This document shows positions 10,139 to 26,568 of a stretch of DNA of 39,193 nt, in pieces. Numbering within the stretch: the first letter of the stretch is position 1; every line of letters begins with the position of its first letter. Both the position numbers and the translations under genes were made by a program. Source of the DNA: Roseisalinus antarcticus. GTDB lineage: Bacteria; Pseudomonadota; Alphaproteobacteria; Rhodobacterales; Rhodobacteraceae. The DNA lies in assembly GCF_900172355.1 (NCBI RefSeq), contig NZ_FWFZ01000029.1, positions 1 to 39,193 of the forward strand, written 5' to 3'. The notes beneath the pieces are model-generated. The model was not told where the DNA came from. It saw nothing but the letters and a program-made list of their open reading frames with translations, and made no database searches.

Positions 10139-10151
10139 AACGTTACTCCAT

Positions 10152-10343: not shown

Positions 10344-10377
10344 CAAAAAGTGAAAGTGTCCTTCGGGTTTTGTGACT
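10344..10377 (+). repeat. Dispersed leader motif, copy 1 (diverged)
   Basis: AAAAAGTGAAAGTGTCCTTC followed by GGGTTTTG. This is the least perfect of six related leader motifs (GAAAG, 3 bases, CCTTC). Downstream GAGGG...CCCTC can pair before the start of the next gene at 10457. Confidence 0.5.
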
Positions 10378-10456
10378 GACGGATGAGGGCCTTTGGGGTC
10401 CCTCAAATGGGTCCGGGCCGGATTCCGGTCTGTCTTTCTTGACGAAGGGCATTCCC

Positions 10457-10927
10457 ATGCAAACAGGTGTCTTGCGCGTGTTGCGCGCGACCGCTGCCTC
10501 CTGGTGGCGGCACAAGGAATTGCGCCGAACCGGCAAGACCGAGCTGGCGCGGCGGCTCGAACGCGAGACTGTGTTGCGCGATCTCGGCTATCTCAGGCAG
10601 GCGGCGACATTGCCGGACGCGCATGTGATCTGCGGACATGGCGGGACGTTCATCCATCTCGGTTGGACCACCGTGTCCACGCTCGCGCCGATCGAGCGCT
10701 TGCCCTTGGCCGCTCTTGCGGTCGCACGAAGGACGCCCTTCATCGATATCCGACCCGTCACCGATGTGATCGCCTTCGCGAACCTGCCCCGCGTGCCGCG
10801 GGACGGATCGATCGACCCTGAATCTTGGGGTCCCGGCAGGTCCATCCCACTGACCACCTACATCGACATGGTCGAAAAGCTCGGTGCGAGGATCGCCAAC
10901 GACCCGCGCACCCGTCGGTCAACCTGA
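10457..10927 (+). CDS. Conserved-looking plasmid protein of unknown function
   Basis: 156 aa; I do not recognise a family. ATG 10457 is preceded by GAAGGGCATTCCC, the same CCCATG start context seen in most genes of this block. The N-terminus is basic (WWRHKELRRTGKTELARRLE). The rest mixes hydrophobic strands with an ICGHGGTFIHLGW segment and a proline-rich tail. No signal peptide or membrane helix is evident. It is the first gene of the plus-strand backbone module, 41 bases ahead of ardC, so the two are probably co-transcribed. Confidence 0.65.
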   Translation: MQTGVLRVLRATAASWWRHKELRRTGKTELARRLERETVLRDLGYLRQAATLPDAHVICGHGGTFIHLGWTTVSTLAPIERLPLAALAVARRTPFIDIRPVTDVIAFANLPRVPRDGSIDPESWGPGRSIPLTTYIDMVEKLGARIANDPRTRRST

Positions 10928-10967
10928 ATCCCATTCTCTCTCATCAACACACGAAAGGACGCCAGCC

Positions 10968-11906
10968 ATGGCCCGATCCCGCACGCCCAAATTCGATGCC
11001 TCCGAGGTCATCACAAACGAAATCATCCGCATCATCGAGCGCGGCGTCCTGCCGTGGCGCAAGCCCTGGACGGCAGGTGGCAGCTCTCGTCCCCTGCGCG
11101 TGGGCGGTGAGCCCTACCTGGGGGTGAACAACTTCCTGCTGACCATGCGGACCGTGATGGCAGGCCACAGCTCGCCCTTCTGGATGACGCTGCCGCAGGC
11201 CAATGCGTTGGACGCAAAGGTCCGCAAGGGCGAAAAGTCCTCCGTCGTGGTGTATTACGGCCAAAGTCGGAAAGGCGCCGATAACGACGACGACTGCGGC
11301 GATGGCGATGATCACTCCGAGGAGGCTCGGATCTTCCGCTTCCAGAAATCATATCGCGTGTTCAATGGCTGCCAGATCGAGGGTCTGCCCGACAGCTTCT
11401 ACCCAGACCCGGAGCCAACGCCCGAACATCCCCCTGCAGAGCCCATCCCGTATATGCAGACATTCTTCGATGCGATCGACATCACCACGGTATTCGCGGG
11501 CGGCGAGGCCTACTACCTGCCGCCGGTGGACAAGGTTTACATGCCGCAGGTCACGCGGTTTCAGGACCCGCGCAATTTCTACGGGGTCTGGGCGCATGAG
11601 CTTGCCCATGCCACGAAAGCCCCGCATCGGCTGAACCGCGATTATGGTCTCTCGCGGTTCGGCAATACTTCTTATGCCCGCGAAGAGATTGTGGCCGAGT
11701 TGACCTCCTGTTTCCTGGGACAGGAGCTTGGGTTCACGGCGCATACGCTCGAGATGAATGCCGCTTACCTCTACAACTGGCTGCGCGTTTTGCGCTCGGA
11801 CAAAACCGCGATCTTCAAGCACGCCGCGGATGCGCAGCGCGCCTGTGACTACCTGATCGCCAGCTCGGAGGCGGGCAGGGCAGGGGGCAGCGCCGAGGCT
11901 GCCTGA
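10968..11906 (+). CDS. ardC: ArdC-like antirestriction protein
   Basis: 312 aa from ATG 10968 (AAAGGACGCCAGCC upstream). ArdC proteins bind single-stranded DNA and protect incoming plasmid DNA from host restriction. The N-terminal DUF1738-type domain shows ITNEIIRIIERGVLPWRKPW and LRVGGEPYLGVNNFLL. The C-terminal zincin-like domain has the metal-binding HELAHATKAPHRL motif (HExxH), then REEIVAELTSCFLGQELGF and NAAYLYNWLRVLRSDK. An acidic insert (NDDDCGDGDDHSEEA) interrupts the first domain. Such genes are expressed early in conjugation; here it opens the backbone module. Confidence 0.9.
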   Translation: MARSRTPKFDASEVITNEIIRIIERGVLPWRKPWTAGGSSRPLRVGGEPYLGVNNFLLTMRTVMAGHSSPFWMTLPQANALDAKVRKGEKSSVVVYYGQSRKGADNDDDCGDGDDHSEEARIFRFQKSYRVFNGCQIEGLPDSFYPDPEPTPEHPPAEPIPYMQTFFDAIDITTVFAGGEAYYLPPVDKVYMPQVTRFQDPRNFYGVWAHELAHATKAPHRLNRDYGLSRFGNTSYAREEIVAELTSCFLGQELGFTAHTLEMNAAYLYNWLRVLRSDKTAIFKHAADAQRACDYLIASSEAGRAGGSAEAA

Positions 11907-11931
11907 TAACACCCCGCAAACGGAGATTCCC

Positions 11932-12141
11932 ATGTCACACAAGGACCCAAAGACGCTGCGGGTCGCCTGTTTCCCTGGTGGTCACCGCAGGATCATCACC
12001 TTCGAACGCGGTGCCTATTGGTGGAGCCAGTCCGAGGGTGCTTATCCGCTCTCGGCAGCGCTTGAGAGCATCACGGAAAAGGGCGGCTGGATCGAAACCA
12101 TCCCCAACCCGAACTACAGAGGCAGACGGCTGTTCGGGTAA
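11932..12141 (+). CDS. Small hypothetical protein
   Basis: 69 aa, unrecognised. It starts 25 bases behind ardC with CGGAGATTCCC ahead of the ATG and is probably in the same transcript. Visible features are an aromatic GAYWWSQSEGAYPLSAAL stretch and a basic C-terminal end (NYRGRRLFG). No membrane segment. Confidence 0.6.
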   Translation: MSHKDPKTLRVACFPGGHRRIITFERGAYWWSQSEGAYPLSAALESITEKGGWIETIPNPNYRGRRLFG

Positions 12142-12173
12142 GGCACCTTCGGCCTCGGTTCTTCCGCCACGTG

Positions 12174-12219
12174 GAAAAGAAAAAGCAGGCTTTGAGAAGG
12201 GTGTTTCAACTTCTCAAAG
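12174..12219 (+). repeat. Dispersed leader motif, copy 2, with hairpin
   Basis: GAAAAGAAAAAGCAGGCTTT (AAAGC-AG-GCTTT) followed at once by a perfect stem TTTGAGAAG / CTTCTCAAA around 10 bases. The stem ends at the AAAGGAG ribosome binding site of the next gene, so folding could limit its translation. Confidence 0.6.
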
Positions 12220-12228
12220 GAGAGCCCC

Positions 12229-12618
12229 ATGACCAGTACCGCTCAATCCCAGACAGACCGCCCGGACCCGACCGTAATCGCCGCACAGAACGACGCGTTC
12301 CGCCAGCTCGCCTGTCTCGGCATCCCGCCCGCGCAGCCCATCCAGGGCCGCATGCATGTCACCCGTTCGCTCATGGAGGCCGATGATGGCTTCATGGCGG
12401 AGGCAGTAAAGGCCACGGGCACGTTCGAGACGTTTGAGCCCGAAAACGACCCCGAAGGCTGGCACGATTTCGGGGCGGTCGAGATCCGGGGTGAGACCGT
12501 GTTCTGGAAAATCGATCTCTACGAGGCTGACTCGGATTTCCGATACGGGGCCGAGACCCCGGACAACCCCGCGACCACCATGCGCGTGCTGACCATCATG
12601 CTGGCGCGCGACTGGTAG
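12229..12618 (+). CDS. DUF3768 family protein
   Basis: 129 aa. The conserved DUF3768 core is plain: NDAFRQ near the start, FEPENDPEGWHDFGAVEIRG, VFWKIDLYEADSDFRYG and the C-terminal TTMRVLTIMLARDW. Function unknown; the family is typical of alphaproteobacterial plasmids and integrative elements beside ArdC, ParB and DUF736 genes, as here. AAAGGAGAGCCCC precedes the ATG, inside a hairpin. Confidence 0.85.
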   Translation: MTSTAQSQTDRPDPTVIAAQNDAFRQLACLGIPPAQPIQGRMHVTRSLMEADDGFMAEAVKATGTFETFEPENDPEGWHDFGAVEIRGETVFWKIDLYEADSDFRYGAETPDNPATTMRVLTIMLARDW

Positions 12619-12671
12619 GGCAGGGGGCAGCCTCAATCCTACACCTCCGACACTCAAGGCCCGCTGACCCT

Positions 12672-12722
12672 CAAAGGGCAAAGCAGGCCTTTTGTCGTTT
12701 TGATCCCCGAACCCGGGGATTG
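12672..12722 (+). repeat. Dispersed leader motif, copy 3, with hairpin
   Basis: CAAAGGGCAAAGCAGGCCTT then TTGTCGTTTTG, followed by the hairpin ATCCCC-gaaccc-GGGGAT. It lies 52-103 bases ahead of the large ParB-like gene. Confidence 0.6.
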
Positions 12723-12774
12723 GTCGCGCGGATGATCGCGCAGACCGTTTCATACCTATCGAAAAGGACATCCC

Positions 12775-14757
12775 ATGACCGCAAACTTTGCCCCTTTCAC
12801 TGTCGCAATTGGCGAGCTAATTGCGCATCCCGCCAATGTGCGTAGCAAATCCCCGGAAACCTATGACCCCGAGAACATCGCGCATCTCAAAGCCAGCATC
12901 GCCGTGCTGGGCCTGCTCCAGCCGCTCCTGGTCCAGAAGATCGATGGTAAATACGCCGTGCTCGCCGGCGGCCGGCGTCACGCCGCGCTGAAGGAGCTGG
13001 TCGCTGACAAGGCTGCCAAGGGGTTCACCGCGAAGACCAAGGTGGACTGCCGACTTGTTCCGGACGATTGCGACGTGACCACAGCCCTGTCGCTCGCTGA
13101 GAACGTCACCCAGGCACCGATGAACGCGATCGACGAGTTCGAGGCCTTCGCCCGGATGATGGAGGTCGACGGCCAGACGCCCGAGACGATCGCCAAAACA
13201 TTCGGCACGACCGTCGCTGCCGTGAAAGGCCGGTTGCGCTACGGCCTGATCCACCCCGACATCCGCGCCGCGGCCCGGGCCAAGGTGATCACGCTCGACA
13301 CGATGAAGGCTTTCGCCGAGCACCCGAGCCAGGAGGCGCAGCGCGAGGTCTTCGAGGCGCTTACGAAAGACGGCGGCTATCTGCAGGCCTATACCGTCCG
13401 TCAGTCGCTCAAATCCCGCGGGGTGCAGGTCAGCGACGATATCGGGGCCTTCGTGCGCGAAGACTACGTGGCACGAGGCGGCGCTGTCGCGGCTGATCTT
13501 CTGGAAGAGCATTCCGTGCTCGAGGATGCGGCGCTGGTTGAGACCATCCTGCTCGAGAAGCTCGGTGCCGCCGCCGAGGACGCCCGTATGAGGCTGGGCT
13601 TTGCCTGGGCGGATGCGATGGTGCGCTATGATTACGCGACCATGGCCGACTTCGGTCGCGTCTATCCCGGCCCGATCGAGCCGGATGAGGCCGCCCAGAA
13701 GCGCATCGATGAGATCACCGCCGAGCTCGAGAAACTGCAGCTCGAGATGGAGGACGAGGGGCTCGAGGAGGACGCCTACACTGCTCTCGACGACCGCGTG
13801 GACGCCCTGGAAGAGGAAGCCCGCGACCTGCAGGAGGCCTACAGCGCCGAGGACCTCGCGCGCTCTGGGGTGATTGCGTCGTGGTCGGGCGGTAAGGTCA
13901 CGCTCCATGTGGGACTCGTGCGCCCCGAGGACACCGTGAAAGAGGAGGGCGCGCGCGGCTCCTCGAGTAACCAGACGGGGGAGGAGGCCCCGGACGCTGG
14001 CGAGATCAGCTACCCGGCCTCGCTGGCTGAGGATCTCAAGACAGAGCGGGCCATGGCCCTTGGCGCCGCGATGGCGCTGCATCCGGAGGCCACGCTTGAC
14101 CTGACGCTCTTCAAGCTGGTGAGTGACGTTCTGTACAGCGGAATGGCCGTGACGCAGGCGATCAAGATCGAGGCCCGCAAAGAATACCGCAACCACGCCA
14201 AGATGGACGAGATCGACGAGACCTCGCTCGAGCAGGTGGCGGCAGCGCATGATGCGCTTGATCTGTCCTGGCTCGATGACGCCCGCGCGCCCGCCGATCA
14301 GTTCGCGGCGTTTCGCGCGCTCGATGCGGGTGAGAAGGCCAAGCTCGTGGCCTATGCCACGGCCAGCACCACGCAGTCCTGCTTCGCGCGGGATCCTAGG
14401 CGCGACAGCCTGATGCATGAGTTCGAGATCGAGGTCATGCCCGACATTCGCGCACATTGGACGCCGAACGCGGCGCTGTTCAACCGCTTCAAGAAGGCCT
14501 GGCTCCTGAAGATCCTTGGCGAGGATCTGGGTCTCGCCCAGGAGGCGGTAACGCTGGCCTCGTCGAGCAAGAAGGAGATCGTCGCCTTCTGCGACAAGCT
14601 CTTTGCCGAGCCCTTCGCCACGCTCACGGACGCGCAGCGCGCTGCGGTGGCCGCCTGGTGCCCGCCCATGATGCAGACCGCCGGTGTCGCCTGTGATGAG
14701 ACGGCGCCCATCGTGGAAACCCCGGAACCTGACGGAGAGGTCGCGCAGGCGGCCTGA
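12775..14757 (+). CDS. Large ParB/RepB/Spo0J-family protein
   Basis: 660 aa, about twice the length of RepB. Residues 1-200 carry the ParB core: IAVLGLLQPLLVQKIDGKYA, VLAGGRRHAALKEL, TTALSLAENVTQAPMNAIDE and a helix-turn-helix (ETIAKTFGTTVAAVKGRLRY). An acidic coiled-coil-like part follows (about residues 305-365: ITAELEKLQLEMEDEGLEED). The C-terminal half is unassigned. Proteins of this size are common on Rhodobacterales and Sphingomonadales plasmids in addition to the true partition proteins; they may regulate or process DNA rather than segregate it. The start has AAAAGGACATCCC upstream and a leader motif with hairpin further up. Confidence 0.88.
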   Translation: MTANFAPFTVAIGELIAHPANVRSKSPETYDPENIAHLKASIAVLGLLQPLLVQKIDGKYAVLAGGRRHAALKELVADKAAKGFTAKTKVDCRLVPDDCDVTTALSLAENVTQAPMNAIDEFEAFARMMEVDGQTPETIAKTFGTTVAAVKGRLRYGLIHPDIRAAARAKVITLDTMKAFAEHPSQEAQREVFEALTKDGGYLQAYTVRQSLKSRGVQVSDDIGAFVREDYVARGGAVAADLLEEHSVLEDAALVETILLEKLGAAAEDARMRLGFAWADAMVRYDYATMADFGRVYPGPIEPDEAAQKRIDEITAELEKLQLEMEDEGLEEDAYTALDDRVDALEEEARDLQEAYSAEDLARSGVIASWSGGKVTLHVGLVRPEDTVKEEGARGSSSNQTGEEAPDAGEISYPASLAEDLKTERAMALGAAMALHPEATLDLTLFKLVSDVLYSGMAVTQAIKIEARKEYRNHAKMDEIDETSLEQVAAAHDALDLSWLDDARAPADQFAAFRALDAGEKAKLVAYATASTTQSCFARDPRRDSLMHEFEIEVMPDIRAHWTPNAALFNRFKKAWLLKILGEDLGLAQEAVTLASSSKKEIVAFCDKLFAEPFATLTDAQRAAVAAWCPPMMQTAGVACDETAPIVETPEPDGEVAQAA

Positions 14758-14766
14758 CGCATCACG

Positions 14767-14800
14767 CGACCCGCGCGAAACATTCCGCCCGCGCGGGTCG
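14767..14800 (+). promoter_or_regulatory. Strong leader hairpin
   Basis: CGACCCGCGCG and CGCGCGGGTCG form a perfect 11-bp stem with a 12-base loop between the ParB-like gene and the DUF3085-like gene. No T-run follows, so it is not a standard terminator. It may stabilise or separate mRNA segments. Confidence 0.5.
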
Positions 14801-14831
14801 ACCCTCTCACACCCAACCGAAAGACATCCCC

Positions 14832-15425
14832 ATGGCTATTCTCAAGTTCTCTGCCTCCGCAGTCGCGGCGCAGATCGCTCATGCGCGCGCCTGCAAGACC
14901 TTCCTGCCCAACTGGAACGGGCCCATTGATCGGCCTGCCTTGATCCTCATCGTCGGCAATGGCGTGCATCTGCGCTCGAACGGCATCGATGGCACGACCA
15001 CCCGCATCGTCACCACCGAGCAGGCCGATCCCTCCTTCGCCTTCGCCGATGGCATGAACCCGATTCGCGATACGGATTGGATGGCGCAACGGCGCATCGC
15101 ATTCCGCGATCTGACCGGCCAGTTCTACACCGACATCCTCGATGATGTGCAGGTGCTCATAGACCGGGGGCAGGGGACGATCCGGCTCGCCACAGATGGC
15201 CACAGCATCCGTGTCTTCGTGCGCCGGGCCTCGGACTATCTCATCGGCGGGACCTACGAGGTGCCCTCGGGCCTTGGCGGTACCTTCCGGGTCATCCTCA
15301 AGGATGCCTGCGATACCTTCGCGATCGTGCAGAACTGCGGTAATTGCGAGGATTTCGACGCGATGCAGCCCTATCGCGTACCGCTCGATGCGCTGATGGA
15401 GATCGATGACCGGAGGGCGGCATAA
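14832..15425 (+). CDS. DUF3085-like protein
   Basis: 197 aa. The opening KFSASAVAAQIAHARACKTF and the segment GPIDRPALILIVGNGVHLRS followed by NGI resemble DUF3085 proteins, small plasmid-borne proteins of unknown role. The C-terminal third (GTYEVPSGLGGTFRVILKDA) is less familiar. ATG 14832 has GAAAGACATCCCC upstream. It follows the ParB-like gene and a strong hairpin. The family call is from memory of short motifs. Confidence 0.6.
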   Translation: MAILKFSASAVAAQIAHARACKTFLPNWNGPIDRPALILIVGNGVHLRSNGIDGTTTRIVTTEQADPSFAFADGMNPIRDTDWMAQRRIAFRDLTGQFYTDILDDVQVLIDRGQGTIRLATDGHSIRVFVRRASDYLIGGTYEVPSGLGGTFRVILKDACDTFAIVQNCGNCEDFDAMQPYRVPLDALMEIDDRRAA

Positions 15426-15447
15426 CGCGCCCTTTCTCAAACAAGCA

Positions 15448-15493
15448 TCGCCAATACCCTGCCGGGCCTGCGGCCCTCTCGGGACATTGGCGA
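15448..15493 (+). promoter_or_regulatory. Nested hairpin in leader
   Basis: Outer arms TCGCCAAT / ATTGGCGA are perfect; inside them GGGCC-tgc-GGCCC forms a second stem. The structure ends 35 bases ahead of the next ATG. No T-run, so a regulatory or mRNA-processing structure is likelier than a terminator. Confidence 0.5.
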
Positions 15494-15528
15494 CAACAAT
15501 TTTCCCCAATGAGAGAAAGGACTCTGAA

Positions 15529-16182
15529 ATGGGGTGGCTCTTCTACACCGACCGCCGCGTCCAGACCTACGCGGATGAGAAAGCGGAAATCGCTCGTCTT
15601 TGCAGCTTCGAGACCGACACGCGCAAGACCGAACTGGTGAAAGCCTGCAAGGTCGGCTCCACCTGGTATGCTGCGGCGCGGATCACCAATCTCGATGGCA
15701 CCCCAGTCGAGGACGCGACCTATGTCACCGATCCAGACGGTTCCATCACCTTCGGGGCGGTGTTCCTGACGCGCTACGACGACGGTTGCTGGGGCTACAA
15801 GGACATGGAGGAAAGCGCCGGCCCCGTTGAGTCCCGCGCGCCACTGTCTTTGCTCAACCTGCTCTCCGGTCTGAAAGACTCCGACAGCTACGCGCAGGCC
15901 TGGCGCCAGCGCTGCCGGGACTGGGCCGCGATCCCGGACTACGAGGAAGGCGACAAAATCAAGCTCGCAGCACCTGTGACGCTCACCGATGGCAGTACAT
16001 GCCAGATCGTCACGGCCACCCAATACAGGCGGGGGCGGCAAAAGCGGCGGTGCTATCGCATCGAAGAAACTGGCGGCCTCGTGCGCCTCTCGAAAGCCTC
16101 GCTCGCCGGATCGGCTCTCCTCAGTTCCGCGAAAGGCGCGTCAAGCCCGGTGTTGGCGGAGTTTCTGGCCGGGCGAGATTAG
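15529..16182 (+). CDS. DUF6927-like hypothetical protein
   Basis: 217 aa from ATG 15529 (GAAAGGACTCTGAA upstream). The MGWLFYTDRRVQTYADEKAE start and the middle GSITFGAVFLTRYDDGCWGY, KDMEESAGP resemble DUF6927-type plasmid proteins of unknown function. The C-terminal part has a strand-rich GDKIKLAAPVTLTDGSTCQI segment. No membrane or secretion signal. It closes the ParB/DUF3085 subgroup before a toxin-antitoxin promoter. Confidence 0.6.
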   Translation: MGWLFYTDRRVQTYADEKAEIARLCSFETDTRKTELVKACKVGSTWYAAARITNLDGTPVEDATYVTDPDGSITFGAVFLTRYDDGCWGYKDMEESAGPVESRAPLSLLNLLSGLKDSDSYAQAWRQRCRDWAAIPDYEEGDKIKLAAPVTLTDGSTCQIVTATQYRRGRQKRRCYRIEETGGLVRLSKASLAGSALLSSAKGASSPVLAEFLAGRD

Positions 16183-16233
16183 GTCCTGCGTCGGACGGTT
16201 GATCGACCTGCCCGGCGAGAGCAAATTCTGCGG

Positions 16234-16268
16234 CTTGTCTTGACAAGGCAATGCAAATGCATTACCTA
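16234..16268 (+). promoter_or_regulatory. Promoter and double operator of prlF-yhaV
   Basis: TTGACA (16240-16245), 17 bases, TACCTA (16263-16268). Two perfect palindromes sit on it: CTTGTC-TT-GACAAG (16234-16247), covering the -35 box, and AATGCA-AA-TGCATT (16250-16263) in the spacer. This layout fits tight autorepression by the AbrB-like antitoxin. Confidence 0.72.
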
Positions 16269-16307
16269 ACGCAAGCAGTAAAGACCCCTTTCTTTCAGGA
16301 AACTGCC

Positions 16308-16634
16308 ATGACAGCGCTCGCACAAGATGTATCGAAACTCACGGATCGGTATCAGACGACCGTTCCGGCGGGTGTGCGCAAGCAGCTCAAGCTGGGCAAG
16401 GGCGACCAGATTCGCTACTGCACCGAGCCGAGTGGCAGGGTCTATATCGAGCCCGTGCGCAGCGACGAGGAAGATCCCGTGCTTGGCGCCTTTCTCGATT
16501 TTGTCGAGGCCGATATCAAGGCGCATCCGGACCGCATTCGGGCGTTCGATGGCGCTTTGCATGACCGTCTTGCATCACTGGTCAGAGACGTTGACGTCGA
16601 TCTCGATGCCCCGCTTTCGCTCGAGGATGAATGA
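16308..16634 (+). CDS. prlF: PrlF-family antitoxin
   Basis: 108 aa from ATG 16308 (AGGAAACTGCC upstream). An AbrB/SpoVT-type swapped-hairpin domain opens the protein (LTDRYQTTVPAGVRKQLKLG, KGDQIRYCTEPSGRVYIEPV). The acidic C-terminal part (DPVLGAFLDFVEADIKAHPD) matches PrlF/SohA antitoxins, which bind and silence the YhaV ribonuclease. Its stop overlaps the toxin start (ATGA). Two palindromes at the promoter suggest autoregulation. Confidence 0.88.
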   Translation: MTALAQDVSKLTDRYQTTVPAGVRKQLKLGKGDQIRYCTEPSGRVYIEPVRSDEEDPVLGAFLDFVEADIKAHPDRIRAFDGALHDRLASLVRDVDVDLDAPLSLEDE

Positions 16635-17149
16635 CTGGCGATACGGTGCCTGCCCAAGCGCCACTCGTCGTAAATGGATGGTCGATTTATGCGCATCCGC
16701 TCTTTCTTGATCAGCTCGAAGGGCTGACCCTCGAGGCCGAGGCGCGAAGAACGCGCGATCCCAAGACCTGGCGCAAAAAGAACTGCACGAAACGGCTGGC
16801 CGCTATCTTCAAGCTGGTGACCGAGGCCATACCGGCGGATCCGGGTGCCGCGGCATTCCGGCAAGGCGGCACACTCGGCGATCATCGCAAGCACTGGTTC
16901 CGGGCGAAATTCTTCCAACAGTATAGGTTGTTCTACCGGTTCAACAGTGACGCGAAGGTCATCGTGGTGGCATGGGTGAACGACGACAAGACCCTGCGCG
17001 CCTACGGCAGCAAAACGGATGCCTATGCGACATTCAAAGGGATGTTGGAAGATGGCAATCCACCTGACAGTTTCGACGCGCTCATCAAAGAAGCCGCGAC
17101 GGCAGAAAAGCGTTTCGAGAAGTCTCTTGAAGCGGCGCCTGGCCGTTGA
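16631..17149 (+). CDS. yhaV: YhaV-family toxin (RelE-fold ribonuclease)
   Basis: 172 aa, the usual YhaV length. Family marks: VVNGWSIYAHPLFLDQLEGL, RLAAIFKLVTEAIPADPGAA, QGGTLGDHRKHWFRAKFFQQ then YRLFYRF, and VIVVAWVNDDKTLRAYGSKT. YhaV cleaves mRNA in association with ribosomes. It is translationally coupled to prlF by a 4-base overlap. The reading frame is intact, so the module is probably active and helps keep the element. Confidence 0.9.
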   Translation: MTGDTVPAQAPLVVNGWSIYAHPLFLDQLEGLTLEAEARRTRDPKTWRKKNCTKRLAAIFKLVTEAIPADPGAAAFRQGGTLGDHRKHWFRAKFFQQYRLFYRFNSDAKVIVVAWVNDDKTLRAYGSKTDAYATFKGMLEDGNPPDSFDALIKEAATAEKRFEKSLEAAPGR

Positions 17150-19556: not shown

Positions 19557-19615
19557 TAGCTTTCTTGGGTTGACTATCAGGATAAGTCGCGGAAATCGGA
19601 AACTGCATGCTTTGC

Positions 19616-19696: not shown

Positions 19697-19766
19697 ATTT
19701 CAAGGCTCTTATCGTTCGGGAAACTTTGCTGTAACGTTCGATCAACACGTCAATGGGAGACCCGAG

Positions 19767-19931: not shown

Positions 19932-20067
19932 AACGAAGTCCCACGATGCCTGGTTTCGATCCAGGGTGCAGGAAGCGCTCAAAGACCCGCGCCCGCCGAT
20001 ATCGCACGCCCACGCGATGCATCAGTTGCAGACGTTGATTGACGAAAAGTGCCAGGAGCAAACTTGA
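19921..20067 (+). CDS. Short RelB/DinJ-like antitoxin fragment or orphan
   Basis: 48 aa from GTG 19921. The core SHDAWFRSRVQEALKDPRPP followed by ISHAHAMHQLQTLIDEK resembles the C-terminal toxin-binding part of RelB-type antitoxins (DAWFRxxVQxALxDPRP with a following helix). No RelE-type toxin follows; the Doc pair begins instead. It is either an orphan antitoxin or the end of a decayed module. The stop codon overlaps the -35 box of the next promoter. Confidence 0.5.
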   Translation: MTAETKSHDAWFRSRVQEALKDPRPPISHAHAMHQLQTLIDEKCQEQT

Positions 20068-20101
20068 CCTAGTGCAGAGGTTTCGTATATACATATGTAT
20101 A
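20064..20101 (+). promoter_or_regulatory. Promoter/operator of the MazE-like/Doc pair
   Basis: TTGACC (20064-20069), 16 bases, TATATA (20086-20091). The perfect 14-base palindrome TATACATATGTATA (20088-20101) covers the -10 box and the start site, a natural operator for the AbrB-type antitoxin. Confidence 0.7.
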
Positions 20102-20118
20102 ACCACGGGAGGCCTACC

Positions 20119-20343
20119 ATGATCGAAGCAAAAATCCGCAAAGTCGGCAATTCCGCCGTTGTGACACTCAGCACCGAGATGCTCGCGCTTCTGGATGCCA
20201 AGGAGGGGGATACCCTCTATGCGGTGCGCACGGATGATGGCGGGCTGAAGCTGATGACGGAAAACCCCGAGCTGCAGGCCGCACTTGCGGCAGCCGAGAT
20301 CGTCATGGATGAGAACCGCGATCTGCTTCAAGCACTTGCATGA
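20119..20343 (+). CDS. AbrB/MazE-type antitoxin of the Doc toxin
   Basis: 74 aa from ATG 20119 (CGGGAGGCCTACC upstream). A short AbrB-type domain (EAKIRKVGNSAVVTLSTEML, ALLDAKEGDTLYAVRTDDGG) is followed by a helical tail (ELQAALAAAEIVMDENRDLL) that would block the toxin's active site. The stop overlaps the doc start by 4 bases. Antitoxins of this fold, rather than Phd, accompany many Doc toxins in alphaproteobacteria. Confidence 0.85.
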   Translation: MIEAKIRKVGNSAVVTLSTEMLALLDAKEGDTLYAVRTDDGGLKLMTENPELQAALAAAEIVMDENRDLLQALA

Positions 20344-20735
20344 GCGATTGGGTCTGGGTTCCGCTGGCGGCCTTGTATGTCGTCCATGATCGCCAGATCG
20401 CGCGCCACGGCGGTGCGCCGGGGACCCGTGATCCGGCTCTTCTTGAAATGGGATGCGCCCGGGCGTTGAACCGGGCGTCCTATGAGGACGCAGATGTCTT
20501 CGCGATCGCGGCGGCCTATGCCTATGGCATTGCAAAAGCACATGCCTTTGTCGATGGCAACAAGCGCACCGCTTTCGTGGCAGCCTTTACATTCTTGCGG
20601 CTCAATGGCGTGTATCTGCGACCCGATCCCGGAAAGGGTGTCCGGATGATGGAAGACCTTGCCGCCGATCAGGTGAGTGAGGACGCATTTGCCACATGGC
20701 TGCGCGACCTATCCACGGAGACCGACGCAGTCTGA
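20340..20735 (+). CDS. doc: Death-on-curing (Doc) toxin, Fic fold
   Basis: 131 aa. The active-site motif HAFVDGNKRTAFVAAFTFLR is the Fic/Doc signature (HxFxDGNKR). Doc inactivates elongation factor Tu by phosphorylation. The opening ALYVVHDRQIARHGGAPGTR and DPALLEMGCARALNR is typical of the family. The gene is intact and coupled to its antitoxin by ATGA overlap, forming the third complete toxin-antitoxin pair of the element. Confidence 0.92.
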   Translation: MSDWVWVPLAALYVVHDRQIARHGGAPGTRDPALLEMGCARALNRASYEDADVFAIAAAYAYGIAKAHAFVDGNKRTAFVAAFTFLRLNGVYLRPDPGKGVRMMEDLAADQVSEDAFATWLRDLSTETDAV

Positions 20736-20801
20736 TCGCATTGGCGATCCTGTCTGGTCCTTTCTGATCTGACCCTGTTTTTGATTTCGGATACTCATCC
20801 G

Positions 20802-20853
20802 CAAAAGGGAAAAGTGGGCTTTTTGTCCTTTGGAACTCAGACCCTGATCCAAA
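20802..20853 (+). repeat. Dispersed leader motif, copy 4, with hairpin
   Basis: AAAAGGGAAAAGTGGGCTTT then TTTGTCC. CTTTGGA and TCCAAAG then form a 7-bp stem that ends at the AAAGGA ribosome binding site of the large helicase gene. Confidence 0.6.
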
Positions 20854-20864
20854 GGAAAATCCCC

Positions 20865-23800
20865 ATGTCCAGGCCCAAACCGGCAAACTCGGCTCTCTCA
20901 ATCTCCGACGCTGATCTCGTCTCTGCGCTGGCGCAAATCGGCGTGGAGATCGACAACCCACCCCTGCGTAGTTCAGCGCTCGCGCGGATCATGCGCGAGA
21001 CGTTTCATTGCAGCGATGCCGGGGGCGCCTGGGACTGGCGGATGGCCTACGACCTGATGCAGGCCGCGGCCATCCGGGTGCTGGTGTGTGGGGACGACGC
21101 GGCATGTGACGTCGCCACCGCAAAGCTCCTCGCCTCCCGGCTCCTGACAGAAACGCGTCGGTCAGAGCAGCAGATCCGGCTGCAGCAGTTTTCCACGCCT
21201 CTGCCGTTTGCCTCCCTGGCGGTGCGGGCGGCAGCCATTCGCAAGGACGAGACCGTGCTGGAGCCCTCGGCTGGCACCGGTGCCCTCGCCGCTTTCGCCG
21301 CCCAGGCCGGTGCCACGCTTTTGCTCAACGAGATCGACCCCTTTCGCCAGCGCCTCCTGCGCGCCCTCTTCGGCGGCGAGGTCACAGGCCATGACGGCGA
21401 GCATATCGACGATCTGCTGCAGACGCCGGTTCTACCCGACGTCGTGGTGATGAATCCGCCCTTCGCATCCTCGGTCGACCGCTCCCGGGACAAGCACATC
21501 GCTGCAAAACATCTCATCGCTGCCGCGAAGCGCCTGGCACCCGGCGGGCGGCTTGTGGCGATCATGCCGCCGGGGTTCAGCCCGGAGCGTGATGCCGCGC
21601 ATTGGTCTCGCGCCTGCGGCCTGCTTACGCCGCGCCTAGCGCTGACGATGCCCGGACAGGTTTACCGCAAGCTCGGCACCTCGGTGGAGACCCAGCTGAT
21701 GGTCTTCGACAAGGTGCAAGAGGACGGCGAGCTCATCCGCGCCACAGTACAGGATCTGGAGGAAGCCCTTCCTTTTGTCGACGCTGTGGCCGCGACCCGA
21801 CCCGAGTTGCGCCCCGCCCAACGGGCGGCGATAAGCCCTCATGCGCGATCGGTCGGTCCAGCATCTGTCGCGCGCAAGCACCCAGCTGATGTTGTCGCCG
21901 CCGCCAAGCCCCGCGCCAATGCCGCCATCCCGCTCAGCTTCACAAGCTTCGATGTCCCGCGCGACAACACGCCCGTCTCGGACATCTATGCGCGCTACCG
22001 CCCGCAGCGGATCGAGATCGCGGGCGCGCAAGAACATCCCACGCCACTCGTCGAGAGCATCGCCATGGCCTCTGTCGCACCGCCCATGCCCTCAGGCGCG
22101 GCCAGTGCGGAATTGCGCCTGCCCGCCAAGCTGATCGAGGAGGGACATCTCTCCGAGGCGCAGCTCGAGACCATCATCATGGCACATGATGCCCACGGGC
22201 GTGACTTGCCGGGGCGGTTTACGATTGATGACGACCAGACCAAGCTGACGCGCGCCGATGATGATCCCAACGCAAGCGCCTATCGCCTCGCCTATTTCCT
22301 CGGGGACGGCACCGGCTGCGGCAAGGGACGCGAATGCGCCGGGCTGATCCTCGTGAACTGGCTTGCCGGGCGCAGGAAGGCGATCTGGGTCTCCAAGTCC
22401 GCCACGCTCATCGAGGACGCCATTCGCGACTGGACCGATCTCGGTGGCTCGCCCGCCGACATTCAGCCGCTCTCCAAATGGAAACCGGACCAGCCCATCC
22501 CCATGGGCGATGGCATACTCTTCGCGACCTACGCCACGCTGCGTTCCGCGGGCAAACGCGGCACCACGCGGCTGACCCAGATCCTTGATTGGATGGGCGA
22601 GGGGTTCGACGGCGTGCTGGCTTTCGACGAGGCCCATGCCATGCAAAACGCTGCCGGGTCTGGTGAGGGCAGGGGGATCAAACCTTCCCAGCAGGGCCTT
22701 GCAGGGCTGCGGCTGCAACTGGCCGCGCCGCGTGCCCGCGTGTTCTACATCTCTGCCACGGGCGCCACCAGTGTTCACAACCTGGCCTACGCGGCGCGTC
22801 TCGGTCTCTGGGGGCAGGGCCCCGAATACCCCTTCCCGAGCCGCGAGAGCTTTGTCTCGGCGATGGAAGCGGGCGGCGTGGCGGCCATGGAGGTGGTCGC
22901 GCGCGATCTCAAGACGCTCGGGCTCTACACGGCCCGCGCGCTCAGCTTCGATGGCGTTGAATATGATGTGCTCGAACACGCGCTCACCCCGGCACAGATC
23001 GAAATCTACGACGCCTATGCGACCGCCTTCCGCACGATCCACCACAATCTCGAGGCTGCCCTGACTGCCACCGGCGTCAATGATGCCTCAGGCGAGACCA
23101 ATGCCTCGGCCGCACGCGCCTCGGCCAAGTCCCGGTTTGAAAGCACCAAGCAGCGGTTTTTCAATCATCTCCTGATGGGCATGAAAGCCCCGACCATCAT
23201 CCGTGCCATCGAGGAAGATCTGGCAGCAGGCCATGCCTGCGTCATCCAGGTGGTCTCGACGGGCGAAAGCCTGCTCAAGCGGCGGCTTGAGACGATGGAC
23301 CCGGAGGATGAACTCGTCGAGGGTGCCTTGACGCCGCGCGACTATGTTCTCGGCTACCTCGAACAGGCTTTCCCGATCCATGCGCAAAAGCTGGTCGAGA
23401 TCGATGGCAACATGGTGGCCGAGCCGCTCCGCGATGAGACCGGCGCGCTCGTCGTCTCGCGTGAGGCGCTCGCCCTGCGCGATGCGGCCATGATGGAGTT
23501 GATGACGCTCGCCCCGATCCCCTCGGCGCTCGACCAGATCCTATGGGCCTGCGGCGATGAGGCCGTCGCGGAGGTCACGGGGCGGTCGATCCGGCCCCTC
23601 AAGGCCGAAGACGGCCATCTCTTCATCGAGAAGCGTGCCGCCAGCAGCAATTCGTCTGAGACCCAAGCCTTCATGGACGGCGAGAAGGATGTCCTGATCT
23701 TCTCCGATGCGGGCGGGACGGGCCGCTCCTATCATGCCTCGAGATCGGCGAAGAACCAGAAGCGGCGGCGGCACTACCTGCTGGAGCCCGGCTGGCGCGC

Positions 23801-25127
23801 GGATGCGGCTATCCAGGGGCTCGGACGTACGCATCGCTCGGCCCAGGTCAGCGCGCCCTTCTTCCGGGTCTGCACCTCCGATGTGCATGGCGAGAAGCGC
23901 TTCACCTCGACGATCAGCAAGCGCCTCGACCAGCTGGGGGCTTTGACCAAGGGCCAGCGCGAGACCGGCTCGCAAGGCATGTTCCGCGAGGAGGATAATC
24001 TCGAAAGTCCGATCGCGCGGGCGGCGCTGCGCGGCTACTACGCCGATCTCGCCGCCGGGCGCGCCGAGGCGATGAGTTACGAGAGCTTCACCGACTGGAC
24101 AGCCCTGCGACTGATCGACAAGGACGGGGTGCTGCTCGAAGAGCTTCCGCCGATCCAGCGGTTCCTCAACCGGGTGCTGGCACTGCCCATCCATATGCAG
24201 AACGCGCTCTTTGCGGAGTTCATGCGACGGATTACCGATCAGACCGAACGGGCGCGGGCGGCGGGAACACTCGATCTCGGGGTGGAGACGCTGCGTGGCG
24301 AAAAGATCGAACAGGTCGGGGTGGAGGATCTCTGGACCTGCCCGAAATCTGGCGCCGTGACGCGGATCATCGGTCTCGAGGTGACCGACCCGGTCCACGT
24401 CCTCGGCGCCGAAGAGGCCATGTCGCGTAATCCGGACAAGACCATGATGGTCAACCGCGCCTCCGGCCGCGCGGCGCTCATCTCGGCGCGGCCCATGCAG
24501 ATGTATGACGAGGATATCGTCACCCTGATGCGCAAGGCGGTGCGGCCGAACGGGTCGAGCTATCTCGAGGAGGCGCGCTTTGAAGCTTCCGCCTGGGAAG
24601 ACATCGACAGACCCGAGTTCACCCGGCTTTGGGATGAAGAGGCCGCAGCTCTGCCCAAAACCACCACGACCAAGCTCTACCTGCTGACCGGGCTGCTGCT
24701 GCCAATCTGGAAGGATATTCCGACCACGAATGAGCGTATCTACCGGGTCACGCCCGACGGGGTGACCGCGATGATCGGGCGCACGCTGAGCGAGGAAGGG
24801 GCGGCAGCGCTACGCGCCCGCTTCCTCGTCTCTAATCCAAAGACGTTGCAAGAGATGCTGACTGCGGCCCTTGGCAGCACCGCGCCGGTCGATCTGGGCC
24901 GGGGTCTGACCCTGACCCGTCGCCGCGTCGCGGGCGAGATGCGCCTCGAGCTGGGTGGCGCGGACAAGGGCATGATCGAAGGCCTCAAGGCCCTCGGCTG
25001 CTTCACCGAGATCATCGCCTTCCAGCTGCGGGTGTTCCTGCCGCATCGGGAGGGGGTCGATACAGCGGGCATTCTGACCCGGATCGTGGGGCGGGGACCC
25101 GCCATGACGGCAGAACAAGCTGCCTGA
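20865..25127 (+). CDS. Strawberry-notch-type helicase fused to a DNA methyltransferase-like domain
   Basis: 1420 aa from ATG 20865 (AAAGGAAAATCCCC upstream). The N-terminal part has a SAM-binding motif (VLEPSAGTGALAAFAAQAGA) and the amino-methyltransferase motif VVMNPPFASS. The centre has the Strawberry-notch ATPase: Walker A-like FLGDGTGCGKGRECAGLI, DEAHAMQNAAG, and the SATGATSVHNLAY motif III region. The C-terminal helicase half has FSDAGGTGRSYHASR and AAIQGLGRTHRSAQ (arginine finger region). Such proteins are widespread on alphaproteobacterial plasmids and phages; they probably remodel and modify plasmid DNA, perhaps against restriction. The frame is fully open, so it is under selection. 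Confidence 0.9.
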   Translation: MSRPKPANSALSISDADLVSALAQIGVEIDNPPLRSSALARIMRETFHCSDAGGAWDWRMAYDLMQAAAIRVLVCGDDAACDVATAKLLASRLLTETRRSEQQIRLQQFSTPLPFASLAVRAAAIRKDETVLEPSAGTGALAAFAAQAGATLLLNEIDPFRQRLLRALFGGEVTGHDGEHIDDLLQTPVLPDVVVMNPPFASSVDRSRDKHIAAKHLIAAAKRLAPGGRLVAIMPPGFSPERDAAHWSRACGLLTPRLALTMPGQVYRKLGTSVETQLMVFDKVQEDGELIRATVQDLEEALPFVDAVAATRPELRPAQRAAISPHARSVGPASVARKHPADVVAAAKPRANAAIPLSFTSFDVPRDNTPVSDIYARYRPQRIEIAGAQEHPTPLVESIAMASVAPPMPSGAASAELRLPAKLIEEGHLSEAQLETIIMAHDAHGRDLPGRFTIDDDQTKLTRADDDPNASAYRLAYFLGDGTGCGKGRECAGLILVNWLAGRRKAIWVSKSATLIEDAIRDWTDLGGSPADIQPLSKWKPDQPIPMGDGILFATYATLRSAGKRGTTRLTQILDWMGEGFDGVLAFDEAHAMQNAAGSGEGRGIKPSQQGLAGLRLQLAAPRARVFYISATGATSVHNLAYAARLGLWGQGPEYPFPSRESFVSAMEAGGVAAMEVVARDLKTLGLYTARALSFDGVEYDVLEHALTPAQIEIYDAYATAFRTIHHNLEAALTATGVNDASGETNASAARASAKSRFESTKQRFFNHLLMGMKAPTIIRAIEEDLAAGHACVIQVVSTGESLLKRRLETMDPEDELVEGALTPRDYVLGYLEQAFPIHAQKLVEIDGNMVAEPLRDETGALVVSREALALRDAAMMELMTLAPIPSALDQILWACGDEAVAEVTGRSIRPLKAEDGHLFIEKRAASSNSSETQAFMDGEKDVLIFSDAGGTGRSYHASRSAKNQKRRRHYLLEPGWRADAAIQGLGRTHRSAQVSAPFFRVCTSDVHGEKRFTSTISKRLDQLGALTKGQRETGSQGMFREEDNLESPIARAALRGYYADLAAGRAEAMSYESFTDWTALRLIDKDGVLLEELPPIQRFLNRVLALPIHMQNALFAEFMRRITDQTERARAAGTLDLGVETLRGEKIEQVGVEDLWTCPKSGAVTRIIGLEVTDPVHVLGAEEAMSRNPDKTMMVNRASGRAALISARPMQMYDEDIVTLMRKAVRPNGSSYLEEARFEASAWEDIDRPEFTRLWDEEAAALPKTTTTKLYLLTGLLLPIWKDIPTTNERIYRVTPDGVTAMIGRTLSEEGAAALRARFLVSNPKTLQEMLTAALGSTAPVDLGRGLTLTRRRVAGEMRLELGGADKGMIEGLKALGCFTEIIAFQLRVFLPHREGVDTAGILTRIVGRGPAMTAEQAA

Positions 25128-25226
25128 AAAGTGAAAGCGGGCTTCGGGTCGGGCGTCGCGGATCGAGATTTGGCCGGTCTGCGCTTCCGGGGTGCGGGCA
25201 GACCAATGCCATGCTTGGCCCCGCCC
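25125..25226 (+). repeat. Dispersed leader motif, copy 5, with hairpin
   Basis: TGAAAAGTGAAAGCGGGCTT then CGGGTCGGG. It begins on the stop codon of the helicase gene. Further down GGTCTGC and GCAGACC form a 7-bp stem ahead of the DUF6878 gene. Confidence 0.6.
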
Positions 25227-25252
25227 CAAACTCCAGACAAGAGGACAGACCC

Positions 25253-25639
25253 ATGACCAATCCCCAGATCGATTATGCCGCGTTGGCGGCTGAGTGGCGC
25301 GCGGAGCGCGAAACCTCCCTGAAGGCATCCAGAGAAGCGCTGGTCGCGCAATTGCGCACGCTCGGCATCGCGCAAGTCACAGCAGAATACGAAGGCTATG
25401 GCGACTCCGGCAATGTCGAGGATGTGACGGTGCAGCCTGCGGAGGTCAAATTGCCAGAGGCGCTTGCCACAGAGGTTGGCGACTTCGCTTGGTTGCTCGC
25501 CTATCACCATCACCCGGGGTTCGAGAACAACGAGGGCGGCTATGGTACGCTGACCTGGGACATCGCAGCCGACAGTATCACCCTCGATCACGCGGACCGT
25601 TTCGTGGACTGCTCGCACAGCTATGACGAGGGGCTTTGA
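25253..25639 (+). CDS. DUF6878 family protein
   Basis: 128 aa from ATG 25253 (AGAGGACAGACCC upstream). The family pattern is visible: a helical start, EYEGYGDSGNVEDVTVQP, FAWLLAYHHHPGFENNEGGY and GTLTWDIAADSITLDHADRF. Function unknown. One base separates its stop from the next ATG, so the two genes form a translational unit. Confidence 0.75.
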   Translation: MTNPQIDYAALAAEWRAERETSLKASREALVAQLRTLGIAQVTAEYEGYGDSGNVEDVTVQPAEVKLPEALATEVGDFAWLLAYHHHPGFENNEGGYGTLTWDIAADSITLDHADRFVDCSHSYDEGL

Positions 25640-25640
25640 G

Positions 25641-26102
25641 ATGGCTCACCCGCTTCATCATGCAGAAAGCTCAGCCCGGAATTTCGGCGGGGTGCCGTCT
25701 GACTATCAGGCTGTGCACGACTGGTTCGACGCCTCGAAAGAGCGCCTCGCGCTCTTCACGCACAGGGCGCTGCGCCACCATGCCCAAGGTCTGTTCGAGG
25801 CCGAACGTGTCTTCGGCCTGACCCTGACCAATAGCGCGGGACGAGACATCCCCGTGCGCTGGATTGGCGAACAACATGTCCGCGAAGACTGTCAGGGCCG
25901 TATCCCGAGCATGGCGGATTGGCTGCGCCGGATCCAGCCCGAGCCGTGGATGGCCAATGGCCATATCGAAGGCCATGTCGGCATCGAGCCCTGCGGCGAT
26001 CCAAGGGCCGCCTGGGTATCCAAGGTCGCGGCCGGTCGAACGGTTCTCGGCCTGAAGGAATGGATGGCGGCGCGCGCGATGCAAGCGGCGCAAAACGCCT
26101 GA
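25641..26102 (+). CDS. DUF6915 family protein
   Basis: 153 aa. MAHPLHHAESSARNFGGVPS and YQAVHDWFDASKERLALFTH followed by RALRHHAQGLFEAERVFG are the hallmark of this plasmid-linked family of unknown function; the several conserved His residues may bind metal. ATG 25641 lies one base behind the previous stop; an upstream in-frame ATG at 25623 would overlap. A hairpin at 26138 follows. Confidence 0.78.
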   Translation: MAHPLHHAESSARNFGGVPSDYQAVHDWFDASKERLALFTHRALRHHAQGLFEAERVFGLTLTNSAGRDIPVRWIGEQHVREDCQGRIPSMADWLRRIQPEPWMANGHIEGHVGIEPCGDPRAAWVSKVAAGRTVLGLKEWMAARAMQAAQNA

Positions 26103-26137
26103 TAGCTACCGACTCCTTGCCAAACGAATGCTGCGCG

Positions 26138-26162
26138 GAAGCCCGGTTGGACACCGGGCTTC
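26138..26162 (+). terminator. Perfect hairpin, possible terminator or attenuator
   Basis: GAAGCCCGGT and ACCGGGCTTC form a 10-bp perfect stem with a 5-base loop, followed by a T-rich but interrupted TTGCATCGTTT. It stands between the DUF6915 gene and the next small gene. Confidence 0.5.
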
Positions 26163-26201
26163 TTGCATCGTTTCCCCACCAATCTTCTTGAGGAGGATCG
26201 C

Positions 26202-26507
26202 ATGACACTCGAAGACATCAAGGCGGCCGTCGATGCTGGCCAGACCGTGCATTGGGCCAATAACGGCTACGTTGTCCACAAAGACCGGCTCGGTCAGTAC
26301 CTAATCACCTATGTGCCGAACGGCAGCTGCATCGGACTAACCGACCGGAGCGGGCATCGGTTGAATGGAGATGAGATCGAGTTCTTCATCGTGGGCCCGG
26401 CGGAGGACTACGAGGAAAATCCGGGCCGCCAATCAAGACCAGACGGGCAGGGAAGGGGTACAGCACCCGGAGGCGCGGCGGCACACCCACTCAGACGGCA
26501 GCGCTGA
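26202..26507 (+). CDS. Small plasmid-type hypothetical protein
   Basis: 101 aa from ATG 26202 (GAGGAGGATCGC upstream). The compact first 65 residues (MTLEDIKAAVDAGQTVHWAN, GQYLITYVPNGSCIGLTDRS, GDEIEFFIVG) look like a complete small domain. The Arg/Gly/Pro-rich tail (about residues 70-101) looks like extra sequence, perhaps from a lost stop codon. Function unknown. Confidence 0.65.
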   Translation: MTLEDIKAAVDAGQTVHWANNGYVVHKDRLGQYLITYVPNGSCIGLTDRSGHRLNGDEIEFFIVGPAEDYEENPGRQSRPDGQGRGTAPGGAAAHPLRRQR

Positions 26508-26522
26508 GCCGGGGGCGGGGCA

Positions 26523-26568
26523 TAAAGGGAAAGCAAGCTTTCGGTTTTGCGACTCCTCAAGGGGTCGA
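26523..26568 (+). repeat. Dispersed leader motif, copy 6 (most perfect), with hairpin
   Basis: TAAAGGGAAAGCAAGCTTTC then GGTTTTG. It contains the perfect palindromic half-sites GAAAGC-AA-GCTTTC (26529-26542). GACTCC-tcaa-GGGGTC can pair just behind (one G-T). Confidence 0.65.

Follow-up and report, generated by a model that had tools for sequence, protein, structure and literature searches.

In the Bacillus plasmid pLS20 a repeated structured sequence, EGeRS1, lies just upstream of the ribosome-binding sites (RBSs) of several establishment operons including that of ardC; its copies are ~420–750 bp long and 62–95% mutually identical, a constitutive promoter was not detected and the mechanism is given as unknown in the available part of the source (PMC8708921). 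EGeRS2 of p576, described in the same excerpt, is a strong establishment promoter that operates with a ribbon-helix-helix repressor (PMC8708921). In F, ColIb-P9 and their relatives the single-strand promoters Frpo/ssi are elements ahead of leading-region genes (excerpts of PMC11541004 and PMC12826799). Here, we report an element with the consensus AAAGNNAAAGYRGGCTTYNGG, of which ~21 nucleotides (nt) are common to the units that bear it, in six copies ahead of genes of a plasmid module of Roseisalinus antarcticus (Rhodobacteraceae; contig NZ_FWFZ01000029.1, positions 1–39,193, the whole stretch of 39,193 nt being called the window below). The element is real, lineage-specific and present in several copies, and it is a regulatory element of genes with a probable role in establishment.

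EGeRS1 is the nearest in design: the same sequence stands ahead of several separate units (inferred establishment units in the present case), ardC included, and no promoter is detected. Unlike EGeRS1, the remainder of each leader is gene-specific here, and the likeness is one of description and not of sequence comparison. As with Frpo/ssi, the elements stand in one orientation ahead of leading-region genes, and a related ParB-like gene is found in an IncK-type leading region; in contrast to Frpo/ssi, no −35/−10 hairpin was found and in three families the conserved fold favours the mRNA strand. The layout of an establishment-gene regulon with one common upstream sequence is shared with EGeRS2, but neither a strong promoter nor a ribbon-helix-helix repressor was found at this locus. 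The operators of the KorB-type ParB-family proteins of IncP plasmids are short dyads scattered on the backbone, with the ParB-family protein encoded near; the dyads described here are likewise short, scattered and near a ParB-family gene, but have one orientation and no visible promoter. Riboswitches, thermometers and protein-controlled leaders are cis-regulatory RNAs that hide the Shine–Dalgarno sequence. An upstream segment is also predicted to pair with the Shine–Dalgarno sequence in the present leaders, but the module gave no Rfam match above the gathering score and no ligand or factor is known.

Placement and conservation of the element

The six copies had been proposed in an initial annotation made without database searches. 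All are present on the plus strand, are conserved in related Rhodobacterales plasmids and, measured from the aligned element start, precede start codons by 55–127 nt (30–130 bases in that annotation; Table 1; the AAAG-type cores are at the first position of each copy). Copy counting alone, in the window or in the genome, is weak evidence, and conservation elsewhere is stronger. In the window, GAAAGCNNGCTTTC was matched five times with at most two mismatches where 2.31 matches were expected, and five of 100 shuffles reached this number. AAAGNNAAAGYRNGCTTTNNG, a pattern written from the six window copies, gave seven matches with at most two mismatches in the 5.0 Mb genome against six (4 + 2) for the reversed control pattern; six of the seven fall within 16.2 kb on one contig and one strand.

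Eleven annotated plasmid stretches were compared, and the motif was found at orthologous places in them, some plasmids being without some of the genes. A model based on sequence alone (R1), for which 44 copies were used, matched 47 of the 295 family genomes at E ≤ 0.01, several by one weak match. In a class-wide set of 385 genomes it matched nine, three belonging to the family and six from elsewhere with a single weak match each. For the analysis of placement, 72 stretches (1.12 Mb) selected for containing matches were used, 60 of them taken around R1 matches. Every one of the 233 matches that score 16 bits or more is upstream of a gene of one of seven families and shares its strand (counts in Table 1); ArdC itself bears the element in eight of them and otherwise the gene preceding ArdC does so. 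One match of 10–16 bits (L114) was outside the assignments to the seven families. No copy had been noticed inside genes in the initial annotation, and none lies inside the 13 module genes tested in these stretches. Because the element precedes separate backbone genes, is conserved and is absent from these 13 genes, a regulon-like layout is well supported. Matrix hits had been expected ahead of DUF736, DUF3768, ParB-like and helicase genes; all four were recovered, but the list was incomplete, as DUF6878 and the 156-amino-acid (156-aa) gene (or ArdC) are also preceded by the element.

Within a family the element keeps a nearly constant distance from the start codon, 107–111 nt for DUF736, 98–103 for ParB and 54–59 in 47 of 49 cases for DUF3768 (the others being 15 and 49). 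The helicase distances fall into two groups (53–54 and 60–62), those of ArdC range from 120 to 167, and outliers were found for the 156-aa gene (88, 101 and, twice, 214) and DUF6878 (87 and 90, two matches).

As a test with less selection, a single exact pattern was run over 84,980 species genomes of GTDB and found in 84 stretches. Of 80 stretches examined, 78 were within the module: 74 matches were ahead of DUF3768 (43), DUF6878 (30) or ArdC (1), and four, near the end of the stretch, were placed there by neighbouring genes. The other two were unrelated, in a Berkelbacteria and a Spirochaetales metagenome-assembled genome (MAG). Judged from record titles, the GTDB matches were otherwise almost all from Rhodobacterales. 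The element together with module genes was also seen in an Aurantimonas MAG (L164 and L166; two copies) and a Marinobacter MAG (L176), either by transfer or on mis-binned contigs. It was absent from ten DUF3768 relatives (35–52% identical) in stretches of 2.2–3.2 kb.

In 44 aligned copies the left arm is invariant at two A and at the G, the right arm at its C, and the flanks of the dyad are conserved but asymmetric. The C comes four or five bases after AAAG, which the pattern used presupposes. The inverted repeat of the initial annotation is present as a dyad, the best being GAAAGC-AA-GCTTTC, but has imperfect arms in most copies; the GGTTTTG-like run said to follow it is clear for the 156-aa gene and DUF736, whereas the other families mostly have it in altered form. 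For the 156-aa gene, measured in 22 distinct upstream contexts, conservation per position amounts to 0.08–0.26 bits between −150 and −11, rises to 0.49 over the final ten bases and reaches ~1.8 at the motif. The upstream edge is also sharp for DUF3768 (26 contexts) and the helicase (14 contexts; 0.55–0.76 in the last twenty bases), and less clear for DUF6878, where the upstream DNA is helicase coding sequence. Conservation continues from the motif into the leader and the motif is not an isolated palindrome. No conserved promoter common to the copies was found above it, and a crude E. coli-type score gave no sigma70-like signal above shuffles either upstream or within the element and leader (five families).

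Other repeated words were noted ahead of such modules. Direct repeats of the TTGCCGAT type, upstream of the 156-aa gene and ahead of the module, are present in L065, L077, L079, L084, L089, L093, L106, L118 and L014 and were not seen in the portion of the window inspected. Agrobacterium pAt1 (L124 9874–9956, and upstream of 13027 and 18601) and Sphingobium pF2 (L122 upstream of 11983, 21433, 23554 and 24426) have purine-rich words of their own, GGAGGAAGAGGGGGG-like and GRGGGAGGGGGNGGG-like, respectively, ahead of several leading-type genes; 15 shared words were counted in L124 (1–11 in shuffles) and 25 in L122 (1–3 in shuffles). In four listed Rhizobium records, similarity to the Agrobacterium ParB leader sets in at one and the same position, about −82, where the purine tract lies.

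Leader RNA structure

Leader alignments of each family (18–44 distinct sequences) were folded with RNAalifold on both strands and compared with 100 column shuffles. The z scores of the forward strand and the reverse complement were −4.9 and −2.9 for the 156-aa gene, −4.7 and −0.4 for ParB, −4.4 and −3.7 for the helicase and −5.8 and −1.8 for DUF736. Small diverse alignments were also made for DUF736 (A5; eight sequences), the 156-aa gene (A6; eight) and ParB (A7; ten). Structure conserved on the mRNA strand with compensatory changes was found in internal hairpins of A5, A6 and A7, where most of the double changes are located, and for four families in the larger alignments. In the consensus folds of A5, A6 and A7 the 3′ half of the motif is joined to the Shine–Dalgarno sequence and family-specific hairpins are enclosed; the covariation score was reached by two (A5), none (A6) and seven (A7) of 500 shuffles and also exceeded slid controls. 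The motif is the best partner of the Shine–Dalgarno sequence within its own leader in 41 of 43 DUF3768, 36 of 42 ParB, 20 of 32 DUF736 and 13 of 18 DUF6878 leaders.

In the window, the fold of leader 1 pairs 10355–10365 (AGUGUCCUUCG) with 10443–10453 (CGAAGGGCAUU, which includes the Shine–Dalgarno sequence) in a helix of 11 pairs, and in leader 2 a helix of ten pairs joins 12190–12199 (CUUUGAGAAG) to 12210–12219 (CUUCUCAAAG, overlapping the Shine–Dalgarno sequence). The minimum-energy fold of leader 3 pairs the outer AAAGG of the motif with the motif CCUUU. Predicted pairing of the motif CUUY with the 5′ part of the motif, outer AAAG included, was 0.45 for ParB, 0.38 for the helicase, 0.33 for DUF6878 and at most 0.12 elsewhere; judged by these folding predictions, a hairpin with the outer AAAG is possible in the first three families.

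We tentatively read the element as the 5′ end of cis-acting mRNA leaders that may coordinate and restrain the translation of establishment genes in conjugative repABC plasmids of Rhodobacterales. At rest, the CUUY... 3′ half of the motif, or else the bases that directly follow it, would pair with the Shine–Dalgarno sequence and limit translation, while in an open state CUUY could pair with the outer AAAG of the motif itself. The purine-rich 5′ half would be recognised by a common factor (an RNA-binding protein, a small RNA or ribosome standby binding), which would set all units together and give brief expression on entry of the plasmid into a new cell. A wider proposal seems to us doubtful: that these leaders are a cis-regulatory RNA family new to science and jointly switch translation across the entire leading region in a large group of alphaproteobacterial conjugative plasmids, with the motif acting as anti-Shine–Dalgarno sequence, as its own competitor and as recognition site. 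Zygotic induction would then proceed at the RNA level and not via single-stranded DNA promoters, and other alphaproteobacterial leading regions (Rhizobiales, Sphingomonadales) would have analogous purine-rich leaders of different sequence.

Several results weigh against the mRNA-leader reading. The DUF6878 fold is weak (z of −1.6 forward and −0.1 for the reverse complement), and the DUF3768 alignment has no conserved forward fold (0.3; −5.8 on the reverse strand, from near-zero energies in a gapped alignment). For the weaker covariation measures, as many as 49 of 500 shuffles did as well, and relatedness can inflate these values. The helix between motif and Shine–Dalgarno sequence is missing from the larger-alignment consensus folds of the same families: the dyad arms of DUF736 pair mutually, the ParB motif pairs with an internal segment and the Shine–Dalgarno sequence of the 156-aa gene pairs locally. 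The two leaders of other plasmids that were folded singly, L012 (156-aa gene) and L014 (ParB), are also without it. The motif is the best Shine–Dalgarno partner in just one of 22 helicase, five of 37 156-aa gene and one of seven ArdC leaders, and pairing across families is about as strong as pairing within the own leader except in DUF3768 and the helicase. Double changes between motif and Shine–Dalgarno sequence were not above shuffles in DUF3768, ParB, DUF736 or DUF6878; the 156-aa gene passed this test, but in the wrong register.

Fixed windows of 110 nt gave z scores of −1.9 (156-aa gene, both strands), −5.1 (ParB), −5.7 (DUF736), −1.3 (DUF3768), −3.5 (helicase) and −2.1 (DUF6878), and the same windows at six genes without the element directly ahead gave −4.7, 0.6, −3.7, −1.9, 1.2 and 0.3. 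Since element-free windows also reach −4.7 and −3.7, structure alone is not unique to element leaders. An excess of G–U over A–C cells (507 against 20) was counted on structures selected on the forward strand. The inner dyad was rejected as an RNA hairpin: 153 copies, in which the inner G–C was required by the script, gave 51 A–C against 12 G–T cells, and the inner arms are predicted to be paired at 0–5%. Pairing of the motif with the RBS as a family-specific covarying helix was likewise rejected, with own pairing clearly exceeding cross-family pairing just in DUF3768 and the helicase and with the helix missing from the larger alignments. Given the weak covariation, the low family-specificity and the better partners elsewhere, the motif may act as DNA or as linear RNA, with leader structure as a second layer.

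Alternative explanations

The mRNA-leader reading is preferred to its main rival, a double-stranded DNA operator, which we consider rather unlikely. A plasmid-encoded protein (ParB-like, the 197-aa protein or another) would bind the AAAG....CTTT dyad and repress or activate all units, with relief on entry into a new cell (zygotic induction), leader structure being a separate matter. The operator is kept as a rival because the inner dyad does not behave as a conserved RNA helix; changes in the arms affect either side and do not preserve RNA pairing, as in a double-stranded half-site (again with the inner G–C required by the script), and the dyad occurs in many copies with its left-arm G and right-arm C invariant. 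The ParB-like protein has ParB/Noc-type N-terminal and helix-turn-helix domains, and a repressor is employed by p576 according to the excerpt at hand (PMC8708921). Both orientations would be expected of an operator, yet all 233 strong matches have one; the asymmetric flanks, the arm spacing of 4 or 5 nt and the lack of a common upstream promoter or of a sigma70-like signal above shuffles (five families) also argue against it, and co-occurrence points to no single module protein. Of the regulon under one regulator that was proposed initially, the shared and conserved element ahead of separate backbone genes stands, but the simple operator reading fits poorly with a single orientation and with conservation that extends into the leader.

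A directional promoter of unusual type, bounded by the upstream edge and served by the host RNA polymerase together with an activator or sigma factor that has escaped recognition, is unlikely. The sharpness of this edge, the single orientation and the apparent autonomy of element-plus-gene cassettes in many contexts would suit a promoter, but the crude score gave no −10/−35-like signal above shuffles in element or leader, and the 3′ half of the motif is part of an RNA fold in some consensus folds, though not in the larger alignments. We regard as improbable a single-strand DNA promoter of the Frpo/ssi kind, whereby the transferred strand would fold and leading genes would be transcribed before the second strand is made. 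The leading-region gene content, module genes directed toward the relaxase gene and minus-strand DNA folds that beat shuffles for the ParB (z = −2.77) and helicase (z = −3.19) leaders are consistent with it; the better folding of the mRNA strand than of its complement in ParB, DUF736 and the 156-aa gene (for the last, not in fixed windows) and the failure of the crude score to find a −35/−10 are not. Chance, or shared ancestry without function, would be compatible with counts that are weak by themselves in window and genome, but is highly improbable for an element conserved across many genera while the adjoining upstream non-coding DNA is not.

Candidate regulators

The data gathered link no protein to the site, so no regulator is named, and the initial proposal of the ParB-like protein or a DUF protein was not borne out by co-occurrence, which singles out no module protein. 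The 197-aa protein, labelled 'regulator' in the annotation of several relatives, has the highest median identity (95.9%; DUF736 95.0%) among those module proteins that occur at three or more loci and is present in 35 of 295 family genomes, all 35 among the 47 R1-positive ones. DUF6927 is also present in 35, of which 34 are R1-positive and one (G163) is without the element. The two proteins thus co-occur with the element about equally, as expected from module linkage, and the 197-aa protein was rejected as a specific regulator. Its AlphaFold model was uninformative (predicted local distance difference test score of 33), and PDB sequence searches with the 197-aa, DUF736 and DUF3768 proteins gave no useful match. 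The small GC-closed hairpin brought to mind hairpin promoters of the N4 virion polymerase type (excerpt of PMC4496689); no N4-type virion polymerase is named in the plasmid annotation tables, no search aimed at such a polymerase having been made.

Gene module and neighbouring features

The module extends from 10457 to 27361 on the plus strand, after a toxin–antitoxin pair, in the order 156-aa gene, ArdC, 70-aa gene, DUF3768, 660-aa ParB-like, 197-aa, DUF6927, toxin–antitoxin and UPF0149 insertions, strawberry-notch helicase, DUF6878, DUF6915, 101-aa gene and DUF736 (Table 1). Gene naming was aided by the annotation of a 96%-identical plasmid, and 256 plasmid records have DNA in common with the module. 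Among the plasmids that bear it is pDSHI03 of Dinoroseobacter shibae (L010). On the minus strand 3′ of the module a transposon is followed by VirB4- and lytic-transglycosylase-type genes; the transposon (27644–34423) is of the TniA/TniB/TniQ type and carries HupE and methyltransferase genes.

Table 1. Features of the window, with the number of the 233 strong matches assigned to each family (ArdC, 8)
Feature	Position	Strand	Aligned start (distance to start codon, nt)	Family matches	Basis or remark
repABC	within window				open reading frame (ORF) list and family scan
RES/Xre-type toxin–antitoxin pair	9276–10180	minus
Element copy 1	10347..10372	+	10345 (112)	43	ahead of 156-aa gene preceding ardC
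Leader 1	10347..10456	+			minimum-energy fold −46.8 kcal/mol, z −2.96; alignment A6
156-aa protein, first module gene, no known family	10457..10927	+			ORF; no Pfam match
ArdC-like antirestriction/zincin protein	10968..11906	+			PF08401, PF18818
Element copy 2	12176..12196	+	12174 (55)	49	ahead of DUF3768
Leader 2	12176..12228	+			fold z just −0.92
DUF3768 protein	12229..12618	+			PF12599
Element copy 3	12674..12694	+	12672 (103)	46	ahead of ParB-like gene
Leader 3	12674..12774	+			hairpin GAUCCCCGAACCCGGGGAUU; z −2.88; alignment A7
660-aa ParB-like protein	12775..14757	+			PF02195
197-aa protein, distantly DUF3085-like	14832..15425	+			DUF3085 E 0.042, below cut-off
DUF6927 protein	15529..16182	+			PF21992
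Element copy 4	20805..20825	+	20803 (62)	30	ahead of strawberry-notch helicase
Leader 4	20805..20864	+			z −2.33; UCCUUUGG...CCAAAGGA hairpin contains Shine–Dalgarno (paired 0.86)
Strawberry-notch type helicase	20865..25127	+			PF13872, PF13871
Element copy 5	25128..25148	+	25126 (127)	21	directly after helicase stop codon, ahead of DUF6878
Leader 5	25128..25252	+			z −0.12; weakest structure of the six leaders
DUF6878 protein	25253..25639	+			PF21798
Element copy 6	26524..26544	+	26522 (111)	36	best dyad; ahead of DUF736
Leader 6	26524..26632	+			z −2.21; alignment A5
DUF736 protein	26633..27361	+			PF05284

The ParB-like protein is ~25–30% identical to ParB-like proteins of enterobacterial conjugative plasmids among the matches listed. 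In the one enterobacterial plasmid opened, the homologue lies between ssb and psiB–psiA, with ArdA and a second antirestriction gene near; these neighbours identify that locus as a leading region. No relaxase was found among the window ORFs scanned, and in three of three stretches that reach a relaxase gene, among the 11 Rhodobacterales plasmid stretches, the module genes are oriented toward it on the same strand. Judged from gene content and direction, the module is probably a conjugative leading (establishment) region; the direction toward the relaxase is the layout to be expected if the module enters first with the transferred strand as template.

A weak nic-like candidate, judged against a nic consensus, was found on the minus strand only, in the conserved region before the relaxase operon. 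A strongly conserved non-coding region precedes the relaxase accessory gene (L009 about 26990–27160, with equivalents in L010 and L012); it contains the inverted repeats AGATTTGGC-AA-GCCAAATCT and AAAAACC...GGTTTTT and is a possible oriT. The gap at 14760–14831, which precedes the 197-aa gene, is without the element but nevertheless folds in a conserved way and contains a GC-rich hairpin (CGACCCGCGCG...CGCGCGGGTCG). A thiamine pyrophosphate (TPP) riboswitch aptamer was matched at 1389–1500 of the window on the minus strand with 56.1 bits, barely over the Rfam gathering score of 54.3.

Significance

The element is not described, and DUF3768 is not mentioned, in the literature searched; the available excerpts of three Dinoroseobacter shibae plasmid papers (PMC5513947, PMC4886583 and PMC9426580) do not mention the element. 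An excerpt of PMC12826799 discusses DUF3085 as a plasmid protein whose function is unknown, and DUF736 genes are reported on all Mesorhizobium elements compared in the available part of PMC8627217. The switching-on of leading-region genes within minutes of plasmid entry is understood for few plasmids; the literature consulted treats enterobacterial plasmids with Frpo and the Bacillus pLS20 family. The present locus raises the question of whether zygotic induction proceeds via single-stranded DNA promoters, a repressor or RNA. The element is a testable control element of a plasmid group that is common among marine Rhodobacterales, and it is a marker with which establishment genes, families of unknown function included, can be found and delimited.

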